DNA from: a virus
IMG/VR virus record: IMGVR_UViG_3300020443_000003
Span: 1-35,998 of that record
Reading direction: 5' to 3' (one strand)
Length of the DNA: 35,998 nucleotides
Part shown: positions 2,289 to 26,514 of the stretch, one piece after another
Layout of the letters: each line of letters opens with the position of its first letter
Numbering within the stretch: position 1 is the stretch's first letter
Made by a program: the position numbers and the translations under genes
Notes under the pieces: generated by a model
The model's database searches: none
Seen by the model: the letters and a program-made list of their open reading frames with translations, nothing else
What the model was told of the DNA's origin: nothing

Positions 2289-4954
2289 TAGTCAGCTCCT
2301 TGTTCAAATACCCAGCACTTTACTGTCTTTGATTTATAAACAGCGCTTGATACTGCTACGTTTGAGTCAACAAATTTATGTTTACGACTTGATTTAAGCA
2401 GGCGCTTCATCTCGGTCTGCTCTGGTAGGCGCTGACCTTCAGACTGGGCAATCTTGTAAAAGGCTGGTAGGTTGATTGCTATTTGCTTTTTATCCGCTGC
2501 ATAGTGGTTCATGTTGCAATCTGCCAACGAGTCTAGGTATTCGTAGATCTCCCAGAATTGCTCGACGAGTGGATGGTCGTTGGACAGTCTGGCCACGCGC
2601 TGTTCTGACATTTTGATGAGCGTGTTTTTGGCTGTCTTGGCTTGTTCTTCTGTCATGATGCCGTCTAATACATGCAAATGAAGACAATCAACCATCGCCG
2701 CTACTTGAGCATGATTTAGCGCGATACGAGTATGAGTGATGCCGGCTGCATGATAAAAAGCTTCATACTCGCGCACTTTGCTTTTATATGTGTTTAGTAT
2801 GGCTTCCTCAGCACGAATGGCTTTGACCATGAATTGACTGGTGACTTCGAGCGGTATGCGGTCGAGCTCGTCGACAATGTATTTGCCTTCGAGCGTTTGA
2901 CCTTCACGAGTTAGTCGGATATGCAATAAGCGTGTGAGCATGGCCTCAGACGCTTGGATAGGTTCGTTCTGACTAATCATGATGGCTGCACGAAATGGCG
3001 GTGAGTACGTGTCGTTACCGTTGTTTTTGACACCGCGACTACGGATTGAGCGACCATTAAAAGCGTCTTTTAACTGATCCCATTCAAACTTTGAGTAAGA
3101 CTTTTTGCCGTCTTCGTCGTTACGGTCACCTTCAATCAAGGCGATAGGCATATTGGACACTTGAGCGAACTCACGATAGATAGCGACCGATGTGGCCTTG
3201 GAGGGATCAAAGCCTTCGTAATCTTCACGACCAGATAAGCGCCATAGAAATTCTAGTAAGCGTGACTTACCAGCCCCGGCTTGACCAACCAATTCGAAAA
3301 ATGGAAAGCTGCGGTCGATGCCACGTATCTGCTCGGCAAAGTAAGTGCCCAGCCACCACGCCATGACCACCGTGCCATAGTCGCCACGTACTTTATTGAA
3401 TTTTGGCCACCAGTCGAAGTTTGGTTTGTCTTTGGTATTAAGTTGTACTGCTGGTGAGTTTGCTAATGATTTAACCTCTAAGCGACCAAGCTTGAAATAA
3501 TCCTGCTCATTGATCTCAACTGATTTGCCCTTGTGCACAGCAATGTCATTAAAGATATATGCACCAAACTCTTTACTGTAGCCAATGAAGTCGGTGGTTT
3601 TGACCTCTTTTAAGGCTTCGGTCTGATGACGCATGATGATGTCTAGCTGACCGGCTGCGCCTGTCCAAAATACGCCAGCATAAACGGATAACAAACGAGG
3701 CTTAAATTTAGAGGGACTAGATAATTGGTCACCAGTGATCGTCGTGGTTACAGCACCTTTAGCTGTGGCCACACGCATGAAGTACCAGGACTCATCTGTG
3801 ATCTCGTTGCGCTGGAAATAAAGAGCTTCGAGCTTGGCATTACATAGCTCGGTGACAGTACTGCAGGACTTTACGAACTCTGGCATCTGCTCATCGACGT
3901 CTGTTAAGTCGCTGACTGACTCAAGATAAGAGCCTACTTGGTGCTTTTCGACACCGATGCAGGTCGATAGGGCTTTGGTATCTAACTCGAACCACCAAGT
4001 ACGGTAGTTGTATTCAAAATAGAAGCTGGTGCGCTTGGTGTGCATGTACATAATGACAGCAGCTTCTGATGCTGATGTCGCTGTCAGTAAATTGCCTAAG
4101 TAACGATAGTGCTCGATATGCTCAGATGTGAGACGACCCATTTCATGTAGGTCGTTCCAGTCTAGTTTGCGATGCTTCTCATACGGTGGCTGCGCGGCCA
4201 CACATTTAAAGCCCATGTATTCAGCTAGCTTTACAAACTTTTTGGTGTAGTCTTTGCCGGCTTTATCATTGTCATACGCCCACACCAGTGTAGGTAGGGC
4301 GCGCTTTTCTTTATTGTATTTGCTCTTGAGCTCATACAGACTGTGCTCGGGAAAGTTTGAGCAGCTAATGGAGCTTGCGGTATCAAGGCCATGCTCGTTC
4401 AATGCTATCGCATCAAAGATACCTTCGGTGATCCAAATCTCCGTTGGCAGCTGTGTGTTTGCTGGATGCCACCACCAGTATCCCTTTAGATCATAGCCAT
4501 ATTTAAGATTGGCTTTGCGAGGGAAACGGTCGGCTTTGTCAATGATGCGCTCCCACCAGCCACCATTGGGTAGCTGGAAACGGACGGTCGCAGATGATAT
4601 ACCAAGCTCACGATTTGTATATTGCTCTTGGCTGTAACTGCCTTTGATTGATTTGATGCTAAGCCCACGTCCTTCAGCTAGATAAGCATCGGCTGCTGCA
4701 TTGGGGCTAACGTCTGTCTGTCTATATGTGGCTGACCAGTCGGTAAATAGGTCAGAGAATAGATCTCTGACGTGGACTTCCATACCGCATTTATTAAGCC
4801 TGCCGCATTTGACGACTCGGGGCGTAGTGGAGTGGGTGAATAGCGATTTTTTGCTGCAATCTGGGCAGCGACCTTCACGTAGCCAGTCGCCGCTTACTTT
4901 GAATCCGTAGTCCGATATCAGGCGGTCTACGACTTTGTCATTAATTCGTGTCAT
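2288..4954 (-). CDS. Phage primase-helicase (Zn finger, TOPRIM, P-loop ATPase)
   Basis: An 888-residue replication protein joining primase and helicase, with the domain order of P4 alpha. The N-terminal zinc-binding motif has Cys30-x2-Cys33 and Cys50...Cys56. The TOPRIM domain has Glu177-Gly178 (TEGIFDA) and Asp228-Asn-Asp230 (YDND). The C-terminal helicase has Walker A GQAGAGKS (557-564) and a Walker B-like PIALIEGD (603-610). It would unwind the phage origin and lay primers there. P2 itself uses the rolling-circle nickase gpA, which I do not see here, so this phage has P2 structural genes on a different replicon. The ribosome site is TAGGTAATACC before ATG. The likely binding sites are the GGTAATA clusters at 1541-1676 and 35361-35632. 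Confidence 0.9.
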   Translation of the reverse strand: MTRINDKVVDRLISDYGFKVSGDWLREGRCPDCSKKSLFTHSTTPRVVKCGRLNKCGMEVHVRDLFSDLFTDWSATYRQTDVSPNAAADAYLAEGRGLSIKSIKGSYSQEQYTNRELGISSATVRFQLPNGGWWERIIDKADRFPRKANLKYGYDLKGYWWWHPANTQLPTEIWITEGIFDAIALNEHGLDTASSISCSNFPEHSLYELKSKYNKEKRALPTLVWAYDNDKAGKDYTKKFVKLAEYMGFKCVAAQPPYEKHRKLDWNDLHEMGRLTSEHIEHYRYLGNLLTATSASEAAVIMYMHTKRTSFYFEYNYRTWWFELDTKALSTCIGVEKHQVGSYLESVSDLTDVDEQMPEFVKSCSTVTELCNAKLEALYFQRNEITDESWYFMRVATAKGAVTTTITGDQLSSPSKFKPRLLSVYAGVFWTGAAGQLDIIMRHQTEALKEVKTTDFIGYSKEFGAYIFNDIAVHKGKSVEINEQDYFKLGRLEVKSLANSPAVQLNTKDKPNFDWWPKFNKVRGDYGTVVMAWWLGTYFAEQIRGIDRSFPFFELVGQAGAGKSRLLEFLWRLSGREDYEGFDPSKATSVAIYREFAQVSNMPIALIEGDRNDEDGKKSYSKFEWDQLKDAFNGRSIRSRGVKNNGNDTYSPPFRAAIMISQNEPIQASEAMLTRLLHIRLTREGQTLEGKYIVDELDRIPLEVTSQFMVKAIRAEEAILNTYKSKVREYEAFYHAAGITHTRIALNHAQVAAMVDCLHLHVLDGIMTEEQAKTAKNTLIKMSEQRVARLSNDHPLVEQFWEIYEYLDSLADCNMNHYAADKKQIAINLPAFYKIAQSEGQRLPEQTEMKRLLKSSRKHKFVDSNVAVSSAVYKSKTVKCWVFEQGAD

Positions 4955-4980
4955 GGTATTACCTAATTTTTTGAAGAGTA

Positions 4981-5322
4981 TTAAACGGTTTCTGCTTCCT
5001 GAATGATTTTTGTGACTTCTTCAATCCAAAAGTCGCTACCCATTATTGCCTTGTAGGTCTGAGCTTCACTCTTTAGGAGCCGCTCAGAGAAGTCGCATAG
5101 CGAAATCAGCACCTCGGTATGCTTTTTATCATGATCTTCTTTGGCTAAATGCTCGGCTAGCCAATGCTTGCGTGTTAGGTAGTCGCTTTTGTGAGAGTGA
5201 ATAGCCGCGCAAAACACTTCGCTCAATGAGTCTCTTATATCGGTCGTGAGATTAAAGGGGTTGTGCTTGTTGCTTGGAATGGTTGTATCACTAACAGGCG
5301 ATTGAGGAGTTGGATTGGTCAT
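4981..5322 (-). CDS. Hypothetical early protein (113 aa)
   Basis: I do not recognise this protein. It has a Pro/Thr/Ser-rich, probably disordered N-terminus (residues 1-25) and then a helical body rich in His, Lys and Glu. There is no membrane segment. AAGGA lies 9 nt before the ATG. It sits between the Ogr-like gene and the primase in the early operon, 26 bp upstream of the primase, and could be a primase partner or loader by position alone. Confidence 0.7.
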   Translation of the reverse strand: MTNPTPQSPVSDTTIPSNKHNPFNLTTDIRDSLSEVFCAAIHSHKSDYLTRKHWLAEHLAKEDHDKKHTEVLISLCDFSERLLKSEAQTYKAIMGSDFWIEEVTKIIQEAETV

Positions 5323-5333
5323 CGTGATTATCC

Positions 5334-5552
5334 TTATCTAGTCAGTGCAGCCGCAATTTCAGGTTTTGGCTGCAGACTGGGTTGTATTTGCTGTGATATT
5401 TCAATACTGACCTTGGCAGAAAATAAACAATTTGGATTATGGCAAGCTGCTGTCAGCTGCTTGGTTAAAGGGCTATATACGACGTGCCCGTGTGTTCTCA
5501 TTCTTGAACCGCAGTGAGGGCAGCGGATATATGCTGTCGTTGAGCTTGCCAT
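5334..5552 (-). CDS. ogr: Ogr/Delta-like zinc-finger late activator
   Basis: A 72-residue protein with the Ogr/Delta pattern: Cys11-x2-Cys14, a 22-residue loop with a polar strand, then Cys37-x4-Cys42 (CHNPNC). Ogr (P2) and Delta (P4) bind upstream of the late promoters and contact the RNA polymerase alpha subunit. In P2 the gene lies after D; here it has moved into the early operon ahead of the primase, so it would be made early and then switch on the late genes. The 23-bp dyads at 25465-25487 and 32236-32258 are its likely targets. ATG follows GGAG at 9 nt. Confidence 0.8.
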   Translation of the reverse strand: MASSTTAYIRCPHCGSRMRTHGHVVYSPLTKQLTAACHNPNCLFSAKVSIEISQQIQPSLQPKPEIAAALTR

Positions 5553-5571
5553 AGTGTCTCCAGTTTGGTCG

Positions 5572-5826
5572 TTAGTTCACGGTGAATTTTCCACCAGGGA
5601 ATTGATATTTCACAGTTGGTATGACTACCTGCTGTTGCTTAAACTGCTTTTGACGATGTTCGATAATGATTTGTTTTGAGTGCTCTACGACGAAAGTACG
5701 TACAGCAGTGGCCTGCTGATCCATATCACGTAGACGCATCGCTTCTAGAAAGTCATCTATCTCATGCTGGTTTAGATAGCCATAGATACGATTGTCGCGG
5801 ACGTTGTCCCAGTTTTTATGCGTCAT
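5572..5826 (-). CDS. Hypothetical early protein (84 aa)
   Basis: I do not recognise this protein. The N-terminal half is acidic and helical (YLNQHEIDDFLEAMRLRD); the C-terminal part is Gln/Lys-rich with a beta-like end. I prefer the ATG at 5826 over the one at 5856 because AAGGAGAG precedes it by about 5 nt. It then overlaps the upstream ribbon-helix-helix gene by 11 bp, which suggests coupling. It could be a Cox-like or replication helper, but nothing in the sequence proves it. Confidence 0.65.
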   Translation of the reverse strand: MTHKNWDNVRDNRIYGYLNQHEIDDFLEAMRLRDMDQQATAVRTFVVEHSKQIIIEHRQKQFKQQQVVIPTVKYQFPGGKFTVN

Positions 5827-6019
5827 GATGGCTCTCCTTGGTCTTGGCTGAGTCAATCAAAGGCTTCAACGTGGGTTCATAATCTTTGTCTTGCTGCTGA
5901 TATAGTTCGATAGAATCCGAAACGATATCTTGTATATCTATATTTCTATAGTTTGATTTTAGGCGTAGGTATTTGTGCTGATCTTCAGGAATCCGCACGT
6001 TCAAAGATGATTTAGACAT
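5816..6019 (-). CDS. Ribbon-helix-helix DNA-binding protein, first early gene
   Basis: A 67-residue protein beginning MSKSSLNVRIPEDQHKYLRL, the basic strand plus amphipathic helices of an Arc/MetJ-type fold, with an acidic tail. The ATG at 6019 is preceded by GGAG at 8 nt and is preferred to 6049. It is the first gene of the leftward early operon, opposite repressor 1, where P2 has cox. A Cox-like role (early repressor and excision factor) is plausible by position, but Cox is a winged helix-turn-helix protein, so this would be an analogue rather than a homologue. Confidence 0.7.
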   Translation of the reverse strand: MSKSSLNVRIPEDQHKYLRLKSNYRNIDIQDIVSDSIELYQQQDKDYEPTLKPLIDSAKTKESHHDA

Positions 6020-6066
6020 CGTGGTGTCTCCGATAGTTATTAAAGTCACTGCATGTTTGTGTTAAA

Positions 6067-6145
6067 TTGCTAGCTATCTAGCAACAATATTATTATGACT
6101 TACCCAAATGGATAAGTCAATGTGAAAGGTAATCCAAATGGATAA
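6067..6145. promoter_or_regulatory. Operator/promoter region of switch 1
   Basis: Three signals lie between the divergent early operon and repressor 1. (a) A perfect inverted repeat TTGCTAG-CTAT-CTAGCAA at 6067-6084. (b) An inverted repeat TGACTTA (6096-6102) and TAAGTCA (6113-6119). (c) A direct repeat CCAAATGGATAA at 6104-6115 and 6134-6145, the second copy containing the repressor start codon. Signal (a) shares its GCTAGCTA core with the operator of switch 2, so both repressors may read related sites. Confidence 0.6.
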
Positions 6146-6479
6146 TTTAACTAATGAGTTAATGGTTCAAATCGGTACACGTATGACGACGGAACGTCAG
6201 CGTCTCAACTTCACACAAAAAGATGTTTATACGGCATTGGGTCTTGGTGCTACGTCATTGTCGCGTTATGAGCAGGGCAAGCGAACGCTTGATCTGATAC
6301 AAGCACATGAGTTTGCCGCGCTTGGTTATGACATGCACTATGTACTGACTGGCAATAGAATGGGTGAGTCTGTGAGCGATCTGACTGAAAGTGAGCATAC
6401 GTGGCTTGAGCTATATCGACAGGCTAATGATCCAGAACAACTTATGAAAATGGCAAGGGCGTATATCGCTGCTGAATAG
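6138..6479 (+). CDS. XRE-family repressor 1 (C repressor candidate)
   Basis: A 113-residue repressor with an XRE helix-turn-helix at about residues 12-68 (ERQRLNFTQKDVYTALGLG then TSLSRYEQGKR) and a short helical C-terminal part, probably for dimerisation. There is no LexA-like protease domain, so induction need not go through RecA. It faces the leftward early operon from 6019 and probably keeps it off. The start codon lies within a repeated CCAAATGGATAA, which could let the protein control its own translation or promoter. An upstream 5-codon frame MDKSM starts in the other repeat copy. It ends at a strong terminator. Confidence 0.85.
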   Translation: MDNLTNELMVQIGTRMTTERQRLNFTQKDVYTALGLGATSLSRYEQGKRTLDLIQAHEFAALGYDMHYVLTGNRMGESVSDLTESEHTWLELYRQANDPEQLMKMARAYIAAE

Positions 6480-6483
6480 GCAT

Positions 6484-6517
6484 AAAAAAAGACCGCCATT
6501 GCTGACGGTCTTTTTTT
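6484..6517. terminator. Bidirectional terminator
   Basis: Seven A, GACCG...CGGTC with extra CA/TG pairing, then seven T. It separates repressor 1 (plus) from the convergent small operon ending at 6529 (minus). Confidence 0.85.
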
Positions 6518-6528
6518 ACACTGTTGAA

Positions 6529-6768
6529 TTACCACTCTTCGTTTTCTAAGGTGTTATTTAGTGCTGATGCTCCTGCATCCGTTACATCTGCGATGTCTTT
6601 AAATATCTGCTCTAACTGCTCTGGTTCAATGGCTTTGTCTACGCCACCAATGCTACAAAGCTTTGCTAAAGTATCGGTGTAGCAGTGGATACGGTATAGC
6701 TCATCTGCGATGGTTTTACTGTCGTTGATATTTGTGGTCAATTCTTCTACTTGTGTTTGTAAACTCAT
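6529..6768 (-). CDS. Hypothetical protein (79 aa)
   Basis: I do not recognise this protein. It is an acidic, all-helical 79-residue protein (pattern QTQVEELTTNINDSKTIADEL) that looks like a short coiled coil. It is the last gene of the leftward operon opposed to repressor 2 and overlaps its upstream neighbour by 4 bp (ATGA), so it is co-translated. Confidence 0.65.
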   Translation of the reverse strand: MSLQTQVEELTTNINDSKTIADELYRIHCYTDTLAKLCSIGGVDKAIEPEQLEQIFKDIADVTDAGASALNNTLENEEW

Positions 6769-7091
6769 TTTTTAAATCCTTGCTGTATAAAGTCACTTAT
6801 TCGATGGTGAATGTCCCAAGATTTGTCCGTATCTGCCATAACCATGATGGCCTGTGCAGATGAAAGGCTCAATACGAAATCACTTTTGTCGGGATTAAAC
6901 GCCCAATCCTGCCCCTTTCTTAGTTGTGACTTTTTATGCAAGGTGTTAATAGTTGACTCAGATAAATTACTAATGTTGGCTAAATCTTTATTGTATATAG
7001 CCATTCTACGACGACCTGCTATTACATAGCGTTTGATCGGTAACTTTTCGGTGTCACTACATTTGTCGTTGGCTGTGCTATACTTAGTCAT
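6765..7091 (-). CDS. Hypothetical protein, possible DNA-binding regulator (108 aa)
   Basis: A basic 108-residue protein. The middle (DLANISNLSESTINTLHKK) resembles a helix-turn-helix, and the C-terminal part (SSAQAIMVMADTD...ISDFIQQG) is helical. I chose the ATG at 7091 because GGAGCC lies 9 nt upstream and it overlaps the previous stop as TATGACTAA. A role as antirepressor or Cox-like regulator in switch 2 is possible from its place opposite repressor 2, but is not shown. Confidence 0.6.
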   Translation of the reverse strand: MTKYSTANDKCSDTEKLPIKRYVIAGRRRMAIYNKDLANISNLSESTINTLHKKSQLRKGQDWAFNPDKSDFVLSLSSAQAIMVMADTDKSWDIHHRISDFIQQGFKK

Positions 7092-18606: not shown

Positions 18607-19122
18607 TTATAAGCCTAACTGTGCATTGATCTCGCTAGTCATGTCTTTACCTGCGACGATAAATATACCGTTCACAAAGTCGACCTCAAGGAAGGTAACA
18701 CCATCGTCAACAATTTTGAGATAAGTCACGCTATACGTCAGCTCATGCTCGTTGATGCTGCCAAGCTCAAGCTCACCTAACGGTAAGCTGGTAACAGATC
18801 CACGCATATAGACATCACGCACAACGTGGGTACAGGTGTCTTGACGCTCGTATGCACCAATGTAGCGAATCGGCAATGCTGAGACACCACAGTAAGCAAG
18901 CTGTGCAATGTGTCGGCTATCAACACCCGTGTAAGTAACAGTCGCCTCCATCGCTTCAAAGCCCATATCAAGCTTGATGTCACCGATCATACCGGCTGCG
19001 CGATAGTCTTCAGTTTTTTTGACAATCTCAGGTAGGTTGATGGTTTTGGCTGTGCCGGCGTAGCTGTCGCCATCGACACGGACGTTAAAGTTTTTGAGTA
19101 CTGCAGGCATCTGTTTTGCCAT
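18607..19122 (-). CDS. FII: Major tail tube protein gpFII
   Basis: A 171-residue homologue of P2 gpFII: MAKQMPAVLKNFNVRVDGDSYAG, TINLPEIVKKTEDYRAAGMIG and a beta-rich body. It polymerises into the inner tail tube around the tape measure protein. It follows the C-terminal half of the sheath by 25 bp and precedes a structured gap before E. Confidence 0.94.
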   Translation of the reverse strand: MAKQMPAVLKNFNVRVDGDSYAGTAKTINLPEIVKKTEDYRAAGMIGDIKLDMGFEAMEATVTYTGVDSRHIAQLAYCGVSALPIRYIGAYERQDTCTHVVRDVYMRGSVTSLPLGELELGSINEHELTYSVTYLKIVDDGVTFLEVDFVNGIFIVAGKDMTSEINAQLGL

Positions 19123-19147: not shown

Positions 19148-19747
19148 TTACGCCGCTTGAGCAATGAGCTTGCCAAAGTCAACAAGGTAGCTATCAGTAA
19201 TACGCTGATTGAGTTTGAGGTTCTCAAGGGTCGGTACTGGAGTGTAGTCATAGTCAACCCATAGCATGCCTTGACTCAGATCCTGCGCATTGTTTAGGTC
19301 GTCGTTGTACCAGCATCTAGCACCAAGCAACCAACCTTGTGAGACAGTAGCGCGTAGCTTGGCATTGATTGAGTCGATAATATCTCGTACTAGGACTGGT
19401 GTAAGCGGTTGATCAACGAATGAAAAGCAGCCTTCAATAATTGTGTCTAGTAACCATTGAGCGGTAAGTACTCCCGTCTCAAAAGCAAAGCGAGGGTCTG
19501 ATGAGCACGTGCGATTGCCCCAAAAACGGAAACCCTGGTGCTGGATAACTGACGTAACTTCGTTAGCGTTTAGATAGCCGACTTCCGTGTTTGGATCTTC
19601 TAAATCCCATGTGCGAGGCTCTTTGATGCCAGCGACACCGGGCACAGGAATATTAGAGATCGATTTAGTAAAGCTTGCTGGATATGTGTCATCGATGAGC
19701 GCTCTCATAGCAAGAGCGGTGGCAATGATAGGGGTTGCGTTGGGCAT
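19148..19747 (-). CDS. FI-C: Tail sheath gpFI, C-terminal half (split gene)
   Basis: A 199-residue protein matching the second half of P2 gpFI: PNATPIIATALAMRALID, then GIKEPRTWDLED, GFRFWGNRTCSSDPRFAFE and DYDYTPVPTLENLKLNQRIT. This region holds the conserved C-terminal sheath domain that makes contacts between subunits and with the tube. It has its own ATG and ribosome site (GGGAG, 6 nt upstream). The first codons ATGCCCAAC correspond to TTGCCTAAC at the end of the N-half, so no sheath residues are missing between the halves. Confidence 0.9.
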   Translation of the reverse strand: MPNATPIIATALAMRALIDDTYPASFTKSISNIPVPGVAGIKEPRTWDLEDPNTEVGYLNANEVTSVIQHQGFRFWGNRTCSSDPRFAFETGVLTAQWLLDTIIEGCFSFVDQPLTPVLVRDIIDSINAKLRATVSQGWLLGARCWYNDDLNNAQDLSQGMLWVDYDYTPVPTLENLKLNQRITDSYLVDFGKLIAQAA

Positions 19748-19790
19748 CTTTTACTCCCTGATATTTAACTTTAAGTAGTGGTAGTTATGT

Positions 19791-19813
19791 CTCGCTTAAT
19801 AGTCTTTAACGAG
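19791..19813 (-). promoter_or_regulatory. Hairpin between the inserted gene and FI-C
   Basis: CTCGTTAA and TTAAGCGAG pair with one bulged base around the loop AGACTA on the coding strand. It starts 7 bp after the inserted gene's stop. There is no T-tract, so read-through to the sheath C-half is expected. Confidence 0.4.
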
Positions 19814-19819
19814 TCATTG

Positions 19820-20533
19820 TTAATCTAGTATTATCGGTGGCTCTAAATCAGGAATGACCACATTAAGCATTTGAATAGCACAATCAGCAGTAAATTCGAT
19901 ATAGTCACCATCCGCGTGATAAACAGCTGGCGCTAGTCCATTGCTATCAAGTACATCTACCTTATTGACCAAACTTGCCTTAACTAAATCAAAGGCATCC
20001 ATATACTCTGGAGCATCAGAATGGCGAGGCGGCAGTGTTAGAAAATCCGCAGGCGTACAGCGCATGATTTTAAGTGTTGTACGCTCTGTTATGACTATCA
20101 TTTCATTACCGACTTGAGCTTCACTCAAAAGAGAGTTGAGATTTTCAAAGCTTGTCGACTGTACCAGCGCACGCCACTCTTCGTCTGACATGATGTATGA
20201 GTCATTTACAAACGGTACTTGTTTTGACAGTTCATTTTTTAAGCTCTGCTGTGTAAAACATGCGAGACTTAAATTATCAGGATGTTTGATTAAGTTTTTC
20301 GAGTCTGCTGTGTTACCGATTAAAAGAAAATCTGGTGTGCCTGTTATTGACATCATCGGTGTAACATTAGTCCAATCTGAACTAAAGCCAAAAAAACTAT
20401 AAAGATGGCTAAAGACAATGAGATCGTCAAGATTACCCACTGAGTCAACAGCATATTCAAGGTTTGCGCCTGTAAAGCTTGTAATAAAAGAAGGGCTGTT
20501 GCCGACTTGTATTTTTAGACAGGATGAGATCAT
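19820..20533 (-). CDS. Unrecognised gene inserted inside the tail sheath gene (237 aa)
   Basis: I do not recognise this protein. It is 237 residues, acidic, soluble and mixed alpha/beta, with no signal peptide. I see no LAGLIDADG, GIY-YIG, HNH, transposase or reverse-transcriptase motif. Notable stretches are MSDEEWRALVQSTSFENLNSL (about 128-148), MRCTPADFLTLPPRHSDAPE, and a C-terminal beta-like part GLAPAVYHADGDYIEFTADC. AAGG lies 9 nt before the ATG. It starts 20 bp after the N-terminal sheath half and ends 72 bp before the C-terminal half. Late-operon position suggests a virion or assembly protein, a moron, or a former domain insertion in the sheath. No function is claimed. Confidence 0.75.
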   Translation of the reverse strand: MISSCLKIQVGNSPSFITSFTGANLEYAVDSVGNLDDLIVFSHLYSFFGFSSDWTNVTPMMSITGTPDFLLIGNTADSKNLIKHPDNLSLACFTQQSLKNELSKQVPFVNDSYIMSDEEWRALVQSTSFENLNSLLSEAQVGNEMIVITERTTLKIMRCTPADFLTLPPRHSDAPEYMDAFDLVKASLVNKVDVLDSNGLAPAVYHADGDYIEFTADCAIQMLNVVIPDLEPPIILD

Positions 20534-20553
20534 GATAAATACCTTATTATTTT

Positions 20554-21159
20554 TTAGAGGGGCAATTGATTGTTAGGCAATGGCAGGGCAAGATTGATGT
20601 AGCTGACACTTGAGACATCAGCGCTCGGCACACCCCATTCACCATCAATAATGCACAGCTCACGATCACCATACGTATCGCGGTATGCGACAATCGCTGC
20701 CTTATCTGTAATAAGTGTGCCATCTGGTTTGCGCGGAGATGCGTAGACAATGCCGCGTCGACGCTTTGCAATAGAGACGAGCTTCAATACCACATCGGGC
20801 GTATCAAGCTCTGGCGCTCCAAATCGTTTAGGCATAAGTCCAAAGCGAGCAGGGCAGGTCAGCAATACATCTAAGCTGTCAGCCTCAAAGGACTTAGGCA
20901 CACGTAAGACAACAACGGTAGGGTTGTGAATATCACGTATCGTCTGCAGACAATCGCGCAATGTGCCATCTGTACCGGCTTTATCAATATTGTCTTGTGT
21001 GATACCAGTGAGTAGCACTGGTGTGCTAACCGGGTACATAGTGTCATCAGCATCGGTACTGGTAACGATCAAACCTAATACACTAACGTTGGCATTACGC
21101 ATTGGCAGAATGCCCTGCGTAACCTCTTGTGCTGATATGCCGTGATGAAATGACGTCAT
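20554..21159 (-). CDS. FI-N: Tail sheath gpFI, N-terminal half (split gene)
   Basis: A 201-residue protein matching the first half of P2 gpFI: MTSFHHGISAQEVTQG, PVLLTGITQDNIDKAG, RFGAPELDTPDVV and AYRDTYGDRELCIIDGEWGV. The sheath homology runs up to ...SYINLALPLPN and is followed by the short alien tail NQLPL and a stop. AAGGAAA precedes the ATG. Together with FI-C it restores about 390 residues, close to P2 gpFI (396). The two halves may fold together as a split sheath, or the sheath may be dead and the prophage unable to contract. Confidence 0.9.
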   Translation of the reverse strand: MTSFHHGISAQEVTQGILPMRNANVSVLGLIVTSTDADDTMYPVSTPVLLTGITQDNIDKAGTDGTLRDCLQTIRDIHNPTVVVLRVPKSFEADSLDVLLTCPARFGLMPKRFGAPELDTPDVVLKLVSIAKRRRGIVYASPRKPDGTLITDKAAIVAYRDTYGDRELCIIDGEWGVPSADVSSVSYINLALPLPNNQLPL

Positions 21160-25490: not shown

Positions 25491-26351
25491 TTATTCGAAA
25501 CGATAGATCATGTGATCTTCGTATGATGAGTTCTTATTCATACAAGCTTTGAGACTAATTTTTTCGTAATTGCCGACTCGTTGCCACGTGCGCTGGTCAC
25601 ATTCTTGTACAAAGTCCAGATAAGAAAGTATCTCGCTGCGTGTACTGCTAAAAAATATATAGGGAGGTCTAACATATTGCATCAACTTCAAAAATTGCAC
25701 CATTCCGAAATAGCCTGTTTGGGCGTAAGCACCTTGCTGGGTATTGACATAAGGCGGATCAAAAACCAGTAAGGTTTTTGATTGATCAGCGTACTGAGGG
25801 AGAAGCGTGTCGTATGATTCGCAAACAACTTCTACACCGGTCAAATAATCATCTACAGCAGGAAAGTCGGTACGACGTAAGGTGTTATATAGATGGCTTG
25901 CATACAGCTCATCTAAACTGGCCGCATGTTTGCCGGCAAATAATAACCACGTTGACAGCACTCGCATATCGATGTGACCTTCAAATTTTTTGATCACGTC
26001 TATAACTTTTGGCTTAATACTTTTATCTAAAAGCTTTTGGCGTGGATAATCAGATAGTACGTCCATCAGTTGCCGGCGTAATCTATTACTGTCATCAACG
26101 TGCTTTAGGCGCTCAGTGTAATTGTCAAAGTCATTAAAGATAACTTTAGCTGCTGGTTTTAAATGCTTGGCATTATTGCTAAGTAGACCACTACCACCAA
26201 ACACATCAATGATAGTCCAGCCTTCACCATCATCAGGAATATGCTCATCAAGTACTTTGCGAAAAGCTTTTAAAAAAAATCGTTTCTGGCCAACAAAAGG
26301 TAACGGCGCTTTATGTTGAAGACTTGGTTTTACTACATTGGAATCGCTCAT
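25491..26351 (-). CDS. dam: D12-class DNA adenine N6-methyltransferase
   Basis: A 286-residue Dam/D12-family methylase. Motif I region is APLPFVGQKRFFLKAF (about 14-29), followed by IIDVFGGSGLLSNNA; the catalytic motif IV is VFDPPYVN (about 185-192). It transfers methyl from S-adenosylmethionine to adenine N6, probably to shield phage DNA from restriction; the target site cannot be read. The ATG at 26351 lies 2 bp after a hairpin that covers its AGAGA ribosome site; a TTG at 26378 is unlikely. It overlaps the com gene by 41 bp. The pair is inserted between S and V. Confidence 0.88.
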   Translation of the reverse strand: MSDSNVVKPSLQHKAPLPFVGQKRFFLKAFRKVLDEHIPDDGEGWTIIDVFGGSGLLSNNAKHLKPAAKVIFNDFDNYTERLKHVDDSNRLRRQLMDVLSDYPRQKLLDKSIKPKVIDVIKKFEGHIDMRVLSTWLLFAGKHAASLDELYASHLYNTLRRTDFPAVDDYLTGVEVVCESYDTLLPQYADQSKTLLVFDPPYVNTQQGAYAQTGYFGMVQFLKLMQYVRPPYIFFSSTRSEILSYLDFVQECDQRTWQRVGNYEKISLKACMNKNSSYEDHMIYRFE

Positions 26352-26514
26352 GAGAGTCTCTTTTAGTTTGAGACTCAAGGTCTTCTAATGAGACGCTCTG
26401 GGCGTTCTGTGTAGTGTTTAATTTTTTACAACGTGGACATTTAACGGCGACCACTGCCTCACCTGAGATGCGAGCTAATAAGCGCCCACACTCAATACAA
26501 CGAAAATCATGCAT
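26311..26514 (-). CDS. com: Com-like zinc-finger translational activator
   Basis: A 67-residue protein with the Mu Com pattern: RCIECGRLLAR (Cys6, Cys9) and VKCPRCKKLNT (Cys26, Cys29). Mu Com binds the mom mRNA and opens a hairpin over its start so the DNA-modification gene can be translated. Here the next gene is an adenine methylase whose start lies inside com, with a hairpin just before it, so the same control is likely. It starts 6 bp after the S stop codon. Confidence 0.85.
   Translation of the reverse strand: MHDFRCIECGRLLARISGEAVVAVKCPRCKKLNTTQNAQSVSLEDLESQTKRDSHERFQCSKTKSST
26354..26376 (-). promoter_or_regulatory. Hairpin over the dam ribosome-binding site
   Basis: On the coding strand GAGTCTC, nine bases, GAGACTC form a perfect 7-bp stem that ends 2 nt before the ATG and includes the AGAGA ribosome site. 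A Com-responsive translational block is inferred by analogy with Mu com-mom. Confidence 0.65.

Follow-up and report, generated by a model that had tools for sequence, protein, structure and literature searches.

The usual view of the contractile sheath is that of a single-chain machine. Variable "additional domains" have been described in phage sheaths, where they lie between the N- and C-terminal parts of the core, are averted from the tube and have been proposed as adhesion aids (PMC9230969, PMC3004832). Ig-like or carbohydrate-binding domains are also displayed by frameshifting on coat and tail-tube proteins, examples being TpeX of the lactococcal 936 phages, SPP1 and T3 (PMC6669499, PMC5009743). 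Both kinds of display, by outward domains on the sheath and by frameshifting on tail proteins, are already known (PMC9230969, PMC6669499, PMC5009743). In the open-access journal literature searched, no account was found of a sheath split around inserts, nor of such a split as an attachment point with a portable tag and partner or in a retroelement version.

The DNA analyzed here (the window) is the complete 35,998-nucleotide stretch of virus record IMGVR_UViG_3300020443_000003. A preliminary description, made from its letters alone, had reported a tail sheath gene split around a 237-residue open reading frame (ORF). The split is real and the three ORFs had been placed correctly, all on the minus strand: FI-N (20554-21159, 201 aa), the insert (19820-20533, 237 aa) and FI-C (19148-19747, 199 aa), the C-terminal sheath chain. 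In a PHROGs search, FI-N matches the N-terminal and FI-C the C-terminal part of PHROG 23, the P2 gpFI-type sheath (E 3.9e-61 for FI-C, which also matches PF17482 of Pfam with E 1.3e-9). The window thus encodes two sheath ORFs with a gene between them instead of a single continuous chain. A plausible ribosome site lies upstream of each of the three ORFs, namely GGGAG at 19754-19758 for FI-C and AAGG at 20542-20545 for the 237-aa gene, which has its own ATG start. As in P2, the tail tube gene directly follows FI-C (FII-like; 18607-19122, minus strand; PHROG 55, E 5.6e-47; context only); PHROG 55 is named head closure in PHROGs and the equivalent gene of record MF417929 is annotated as major tail tube. 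Upstream of the tail operon, a DNA methyltransferase gene (PHROG 56; 25491-26378, minus strand) lies beside the genes for the baseplate.

The junctions differ from the first account. The sheath homology of FI-N had been carried as far as ALPLPN and in fact ends near residue 178 (...DGEWGVP), so that the N-terminal sheath chain proper, residues 1-178, occupies 20626-21159. The last 23 residues of FI-N, SADVSSVSYINLALPLPNNQLPL (20557-20625, followed by the stop codon at 20554-20556), are part of the inserted cassette and comprise a tether and a putative docking tag. A 9-bp direct repeat, proposed as the footprint of the insertion, turned out to be a chance similarity away from the true junction: its copy TTGCCTAAC belongs to the tag and has no conserved counterpart in the sister cassette of locus L157, and the FI-C start MPNATP is replaced by MTQ, MTN or MLK in relatives. 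The statement that no sheath sequence was lost is nearly correct, since FI-N and FI-C contribute about 178 plus 199 residues and intact relatives have 388-389; the difference of a dozen residues corresponds to a loop.

A search for relatives removed the concern that the split might be an artefact of one strain. Viral and genome contigs yielded 47 distinct split loci, counted after removal of identical copies, and their hosts, where named, are Psychrobacter, Moraxella and Acinetobacter. Among annotated records the nearest is MF417929 (Bracchivirus U2F1, Peduoviridae), which contains FI-N, an unrelated 440-aa ORF and FI-C, in this order. Among matches to the window FI-C in Moraxellaceae genomes, those with at least 57% identity lie in open frames of about 200-229 codons and those with at most 54% in frames of about 390-400 or more codons; a single match at 51% departs from this in being split. 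A more distant split FI (L153, 4228-5871, Moraxellaceae genome G255; FI-C 51% identical) has a two-repeat slot ORF of 274 aa. In a tree of FI-C, which was read without a settled root, one branch parts all split from all intact sequences except the distant intact sequence serving as rooting outgroup.

Selection on the two halves is strongly purifying rather than relaxed, with dN/dS values of 0.02-0.11 compared to 0.03-0.11 in intact sheath controls; the window itself gave 0.06-0.07 for the sheath part of FI-N and 0.03-0.07 for FI-C. Such values are consistent with the assembly of a contractile sheath from FI-N and FI-C. Because sheaths are normally single chains, a broken sheath in a defective prophage or an assembly artefact could be envisaged, but a split that is common to 47 loci of independent source and selected like an intact sheath makes this hardly plausible. 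The Acinetobacter phage ABMM1, which forms plaques and contractile tails, has a two-gene sheath and indicates that a split sheath can work. A bare split without insert occurs in three of the 47 loci (L043, L050, L107), where the two ORFs overlap or sit 1 nt apart and, in L050 and L107, the FI-N stop and the FI-C start overlap as ATGA; the split therefore does not require an insert. Of the two origins offered in the preliminary description, the two-chain sheath is supported by the conservation of both halves in many loci and by these bare-split relatives. A very recent insertion is not, because the split is old while the contents of the cassette turn over quickly. It is rather likely that the sheath encoded in the window is functional, contractile and made of two chains, and that it offers a slot for a swappable surface module, filled here by a tag-recruited 237-aa protein.

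Mapped on the intact relative L136, the cut falls within a beta-hairpin, between strands 185-189 and 194-198 of a monomer model that has moderate confidence in this region. In sheaths of PHROG 1036 the cut is found at residue ~95, which by position and family appears equivalent to the insertion site of domain I (residues 98-188) of T4 gp18; this domain protrudes outward from the tail (PMC3004832). The free FI-N end is proposed to face outward as well. The proposed arrangement is that the gpFI chain is cut at an inner loop and that FI-N and FI-C co-fold into one sheath subunit, which would free the FI-N end to carry an extra part where other sheaths insert outward-facing domains.

How this end is used differs among the 47 loci, which were sorted by the analyst's own count. 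A -1 ORF overlaps the FI-N end in 23 loci, and 18 have FI-N extended in frame by a module, so that in 41 loci the module is joined to FI-N either in frame or by a predicted frameshift. Besides the three bare splits, an extra domain is fused ahead of FI-C in one locus (L037), and in two loci, the window and L102, FI-N ends in a short tail and the slot protein is encoded separately. All 23 loci of the first class carry a slip heptamer at the end of FI-N (GGGAAAG in 14, GGGGGAG in eight and AAAAAAG in one); GGGGGAG is not a textbook tandem-slip heptamer. Counted in slip phase, the three heptamers number 27 among 1,804 codons around the boundary and none among 22,980 other sheath codons, counts that are not independent because many of the loci are related, and same-phase occurrences in FI-C amount to one in 9,294 codons. 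GGGAAAG has been described as highly shift-prone in E. coli (PMC5009743). From the slip site and the overlapping shifted ORF, the module of these 23 relatives is predicted to be joined to FI-N via -1 ribosomal frameshifting.

Two further features of the slip sites were noted. GGGAAAG is retained at FI-N codons 178-199 in seven loci despite an in-frame extra domain (L005, L031, L053, L057, L108, L150, L152), and the -1 frame stops there within 1-6 codons, so that slipping would yield the bare half and the polarity would be reversed, as in dnaX. In six loci (L007, L008, L013, L014, L038, L058), a run of at least five C follows GGGGGAG within about 10 bases at the FI-N end, and the slip site could thus pair in a small hairpin.

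The slot contents are mostly unrelated to one another. Ig-like modules with Hoc-like and major-tail-protein relatives are found in L003 and, weakly, in L029, BspA-type leucine-rich repeats in L014 and L058, a weak beta-propeller signal in L002 and tail-fibre-like ORFs in L018. The slot proteins of L003, L027 and L099 end in a motif typical of variable repeats and were read by the analyst as C-type-lectin-like, for which Pfam gave no match. One locus only, L099, contains a complete diversity-generating retroelement between FI-N and FI-C (3964-7004), consisting of the lectin-like target, an ORF read as Avd-like, a template (5720-5848) and a reverse transcriptase (PF00078/RVT_1, E 1.9e-15). Mismatches between template and variable repeat are A-biased (14 of 32 A compared to five of 97 other bases), and a predicted -1 frameshift would join the target to FI-N. 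In six loci (L018, L025, L026, L028, L030, L032), the -1 extension consists of about five tandem DAYQPTVKPLDITLK repeats, perhaps a series of docking sites, and two tail-fibre-like ORFs come after it. The -1 module of L054 (2149-2985) matches PHROG 24956 as well as proteins from Xanthomonas, Stenotrophomonas and crAss-like phages; the N-terminal part of PHROG 24956 resembles the N piece of another sheath family.

This variety, which extends to the retroelement and to enzymes such as the epimerase encoded with a weak glycosyltransferase match between the sheath halves of L150 (4070-5577), could also be expected if the insert were a passenger, a moron or mobile element lodged in the sheath gene with no role in the tail. 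The L150 enzymes might modify the displayed domain. For the window a passenger is quite unlikely, as most inserts are, by sequence, physically joined to FI-N, and the window insert travels with a tag that is fused to sheath pieces of three families. The preliminary description had seen no nuclease or transposase motif in the insert, in agreement with the lack of any Pfam or PHROGs family match, and had raised a selfish element of a new kind. This suggestion found no footing: no nuclease, transposase or recombinase match was obtained for the insert, the claimed repeat fails as a target duplication and the accompanying tag is fused to sheath pieces.

Taken alone, the 237-aa protein has no match in Pfam, PHROGs, phage records or viral contigs. 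Its relatives were found only by a Psychrobacter-wide genome search and a profile, with identities of 78% (L157), 49% (L158), 28% (L148) and 26% (L149); comparison with the L157 gene gave dN 0.135 and dS 0.514. The AlphaFold model (pLDDT 64) had no PDB match with E below 0.08, and a search against sequences of solved structures returned only noise (E 0.55). Residues 1-93 were considered as the SC.GAT...CL domain of Acinetobacter inserts and rejected (HMM E 6.7), as was homology to the fused ~140-aa domains (hhalign probability 0.2%), a comparison in which the third HMM iteration was inflated by seeding. Any relationship to the 216-aa ORF of L022 is very weak at most (E 0.06).

The history of the cassette can be read from its DNA. 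The window FI-N is 93% identical to that of Psychrobacter glaciei L098, and the two sheath DNAs match up to 20627 and again from 19744. The window and L157 share a unit with 84% DNA identity from 20613 to 19869 (minus strand), covering the tag and most of the 237-aa gene. The mosaic boundaries are exact, the L098 match lying only outside the unit shared with L157, which identifies the FI-N tail plus the 237-aa gene as the transferred unit. In L157 the cassette stands between an 82-residue N piece of another sheath (PHROG 5292/165) and, after it, a C piece of 269 aa that matches positions 231-491 of PHROG 165. In L148 and L149, the homologue lies between a ~95-residue N piece and a 466-468-aa C piece of a third sheath (PHROG 1036). 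Both of these loci (L148, 4959-6615; L149, 7383-8637) have two sheath N pieces with different attachments before one C piece, which suggests mixed sheaths. In L147/L158, a tag-bearing protein of 75 aa is encoded before the homologue and an intact sheath after it, which means that tag and protein as a pair are not exclusive to split sheaths.

Throughout these settings a short peptide accompanies the protein. The window FI-N ends in a tether and the peptide SSVSYINLALPLPNNQLPL, and the other tails preceding homologues of the 237-aa protein read SSVSYINLDLPLPDDQLPS, GSGVSYINLALPLPDGRIGGLT, APSYINIIQ, DLSYVKITKV... and KPSYASIP; several are preceded by Gly/Ser-rich tethers. The last of them ends FI-N of Moraxella L102, where the following ORF has a short similar stretch (E 8e-5 in a small set). 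The tag is kept alongside the protein in L157 and L158/L147 and more loosely in L148, L149 and L102, the weakest of these cases being L102. As peptide and protein turn up together at the splits of two further sheath families and in two other settings, the FI-N peptide probably serves as a docking tag by which the separately made 237-aa protein is held on the sheath surface.

Two other roles for the protein were weighed against this. It could be a -1 frameshift extension covalently joined to FI-N, as predicted for the 23 relatives with a -1 ORF and slip heptamer, and its ORF does lie in the -1 frame, which is already open over the last 19 nt before the FI-N stop. This is unlikely in the window, since the 19-nt overlap contains no slip heptamer and the gene has its own ribosome site and ATG. 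Moreover, tag changes between the window and L157 are mostly synonymous in frame 0 (dN 0.12, dS 1.2; a small sample) and not in frame -1, and the frame of the homologue relative to the tag varies between homologous cassettes. The protein could also be an assembly factor or chaperone joining the sheath halves, a role raised in the preliminary description; it is encoded between them, has no recognizable binding fold, and the tag could be a chaperone site. Such a role is very unlikely because other split phages carry no insert or an unrelated one. Decoration of the sheath, also among the earlier suggestions, is the best reading of the insert.

In the decorated two-chain sheath envisaged here, the tether and peptide (SSVSYINLALPLP...) would recruit the separately translated 237-aa protein to the sheath exterior, as judged from their co-occurrence. 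The kinds of module in relatives point to extra, avidity-driven attachment to cells or surfaces as the likely benefit. The module is swapped as a cassette between phages, unrelated sheath families included, as the sequence mosaicism shows. In its broadest form, the proposal is that split sheaths serve Moraxellaceae phages as a general platform for display, with separate origins in three or more sheath families. The chain would be cut at a loop that faces outward, and the exchangeable proteins, some of them made hypervariable by a retroelement, would be attached by in-frame fusion, by ratio-setting frameshift or by a portable tag to which a separate protein docks; this wider claim we hold neither likely nor unlikely. 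A natural and evolutionarily stable two-chain sheath would show how far the sheath fold can be opened. The split would be a display site already in place on the surface of tails and perhaps of related injection machines, for which the window offers a natural pair of tag and partner, and suggests that phages of this clade may bind cells along the tail and not at the fibres alone. It also explains several families of "unknown function": PHROG 11242 and 13288 match sheath halves, and PHROG 14345 and 24956 match N pieces of another sheath family.

Compared to the P2 gpFI and R-pyocin sheath (PHROG 23; PDB 3J9Q), both window halves are homologous over nearly the whole length, but the known sheath is one chain and that of the window is two, cut at an inner hairpin loop with the cassette in between. 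Additional domains of the T4 gp18 type are inserted in a continuous chain, whereas here the chain is broken and the module sits on a free end or a tag. The frameshift display of 936 TpeX, SPP1 and T3 resembles that predicted in the relatives, in that a minor fraction of the copies of a structural protein carries a displayed, exchangeable domain added by frameshift. It differs in that a contractile sheath with an internal split is used here, and the window has a tag and a separate protein with no frameshift. Like other diversity-generating retroelements with C-type-lectin targets, the one in L099 has a target, an Avd-like ORF, a template and a reverse transcriptase; unlike them, it is predicted to have its target attached to one half of a sheath, and the window carries no retroelement. 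The Acinetobacter phage vB_AbaM_ABMM1, an infectious contractile phage, likewise has its sheath in two genes (92 and 431 aa), but these belong to another sheath family (PHROG 1036) and stand in reversed order. In its record (OQ471969, L160; 2858-5279) the 431-aa C part comes before the 92-aa N part, with a 255-aa ORF between the two.
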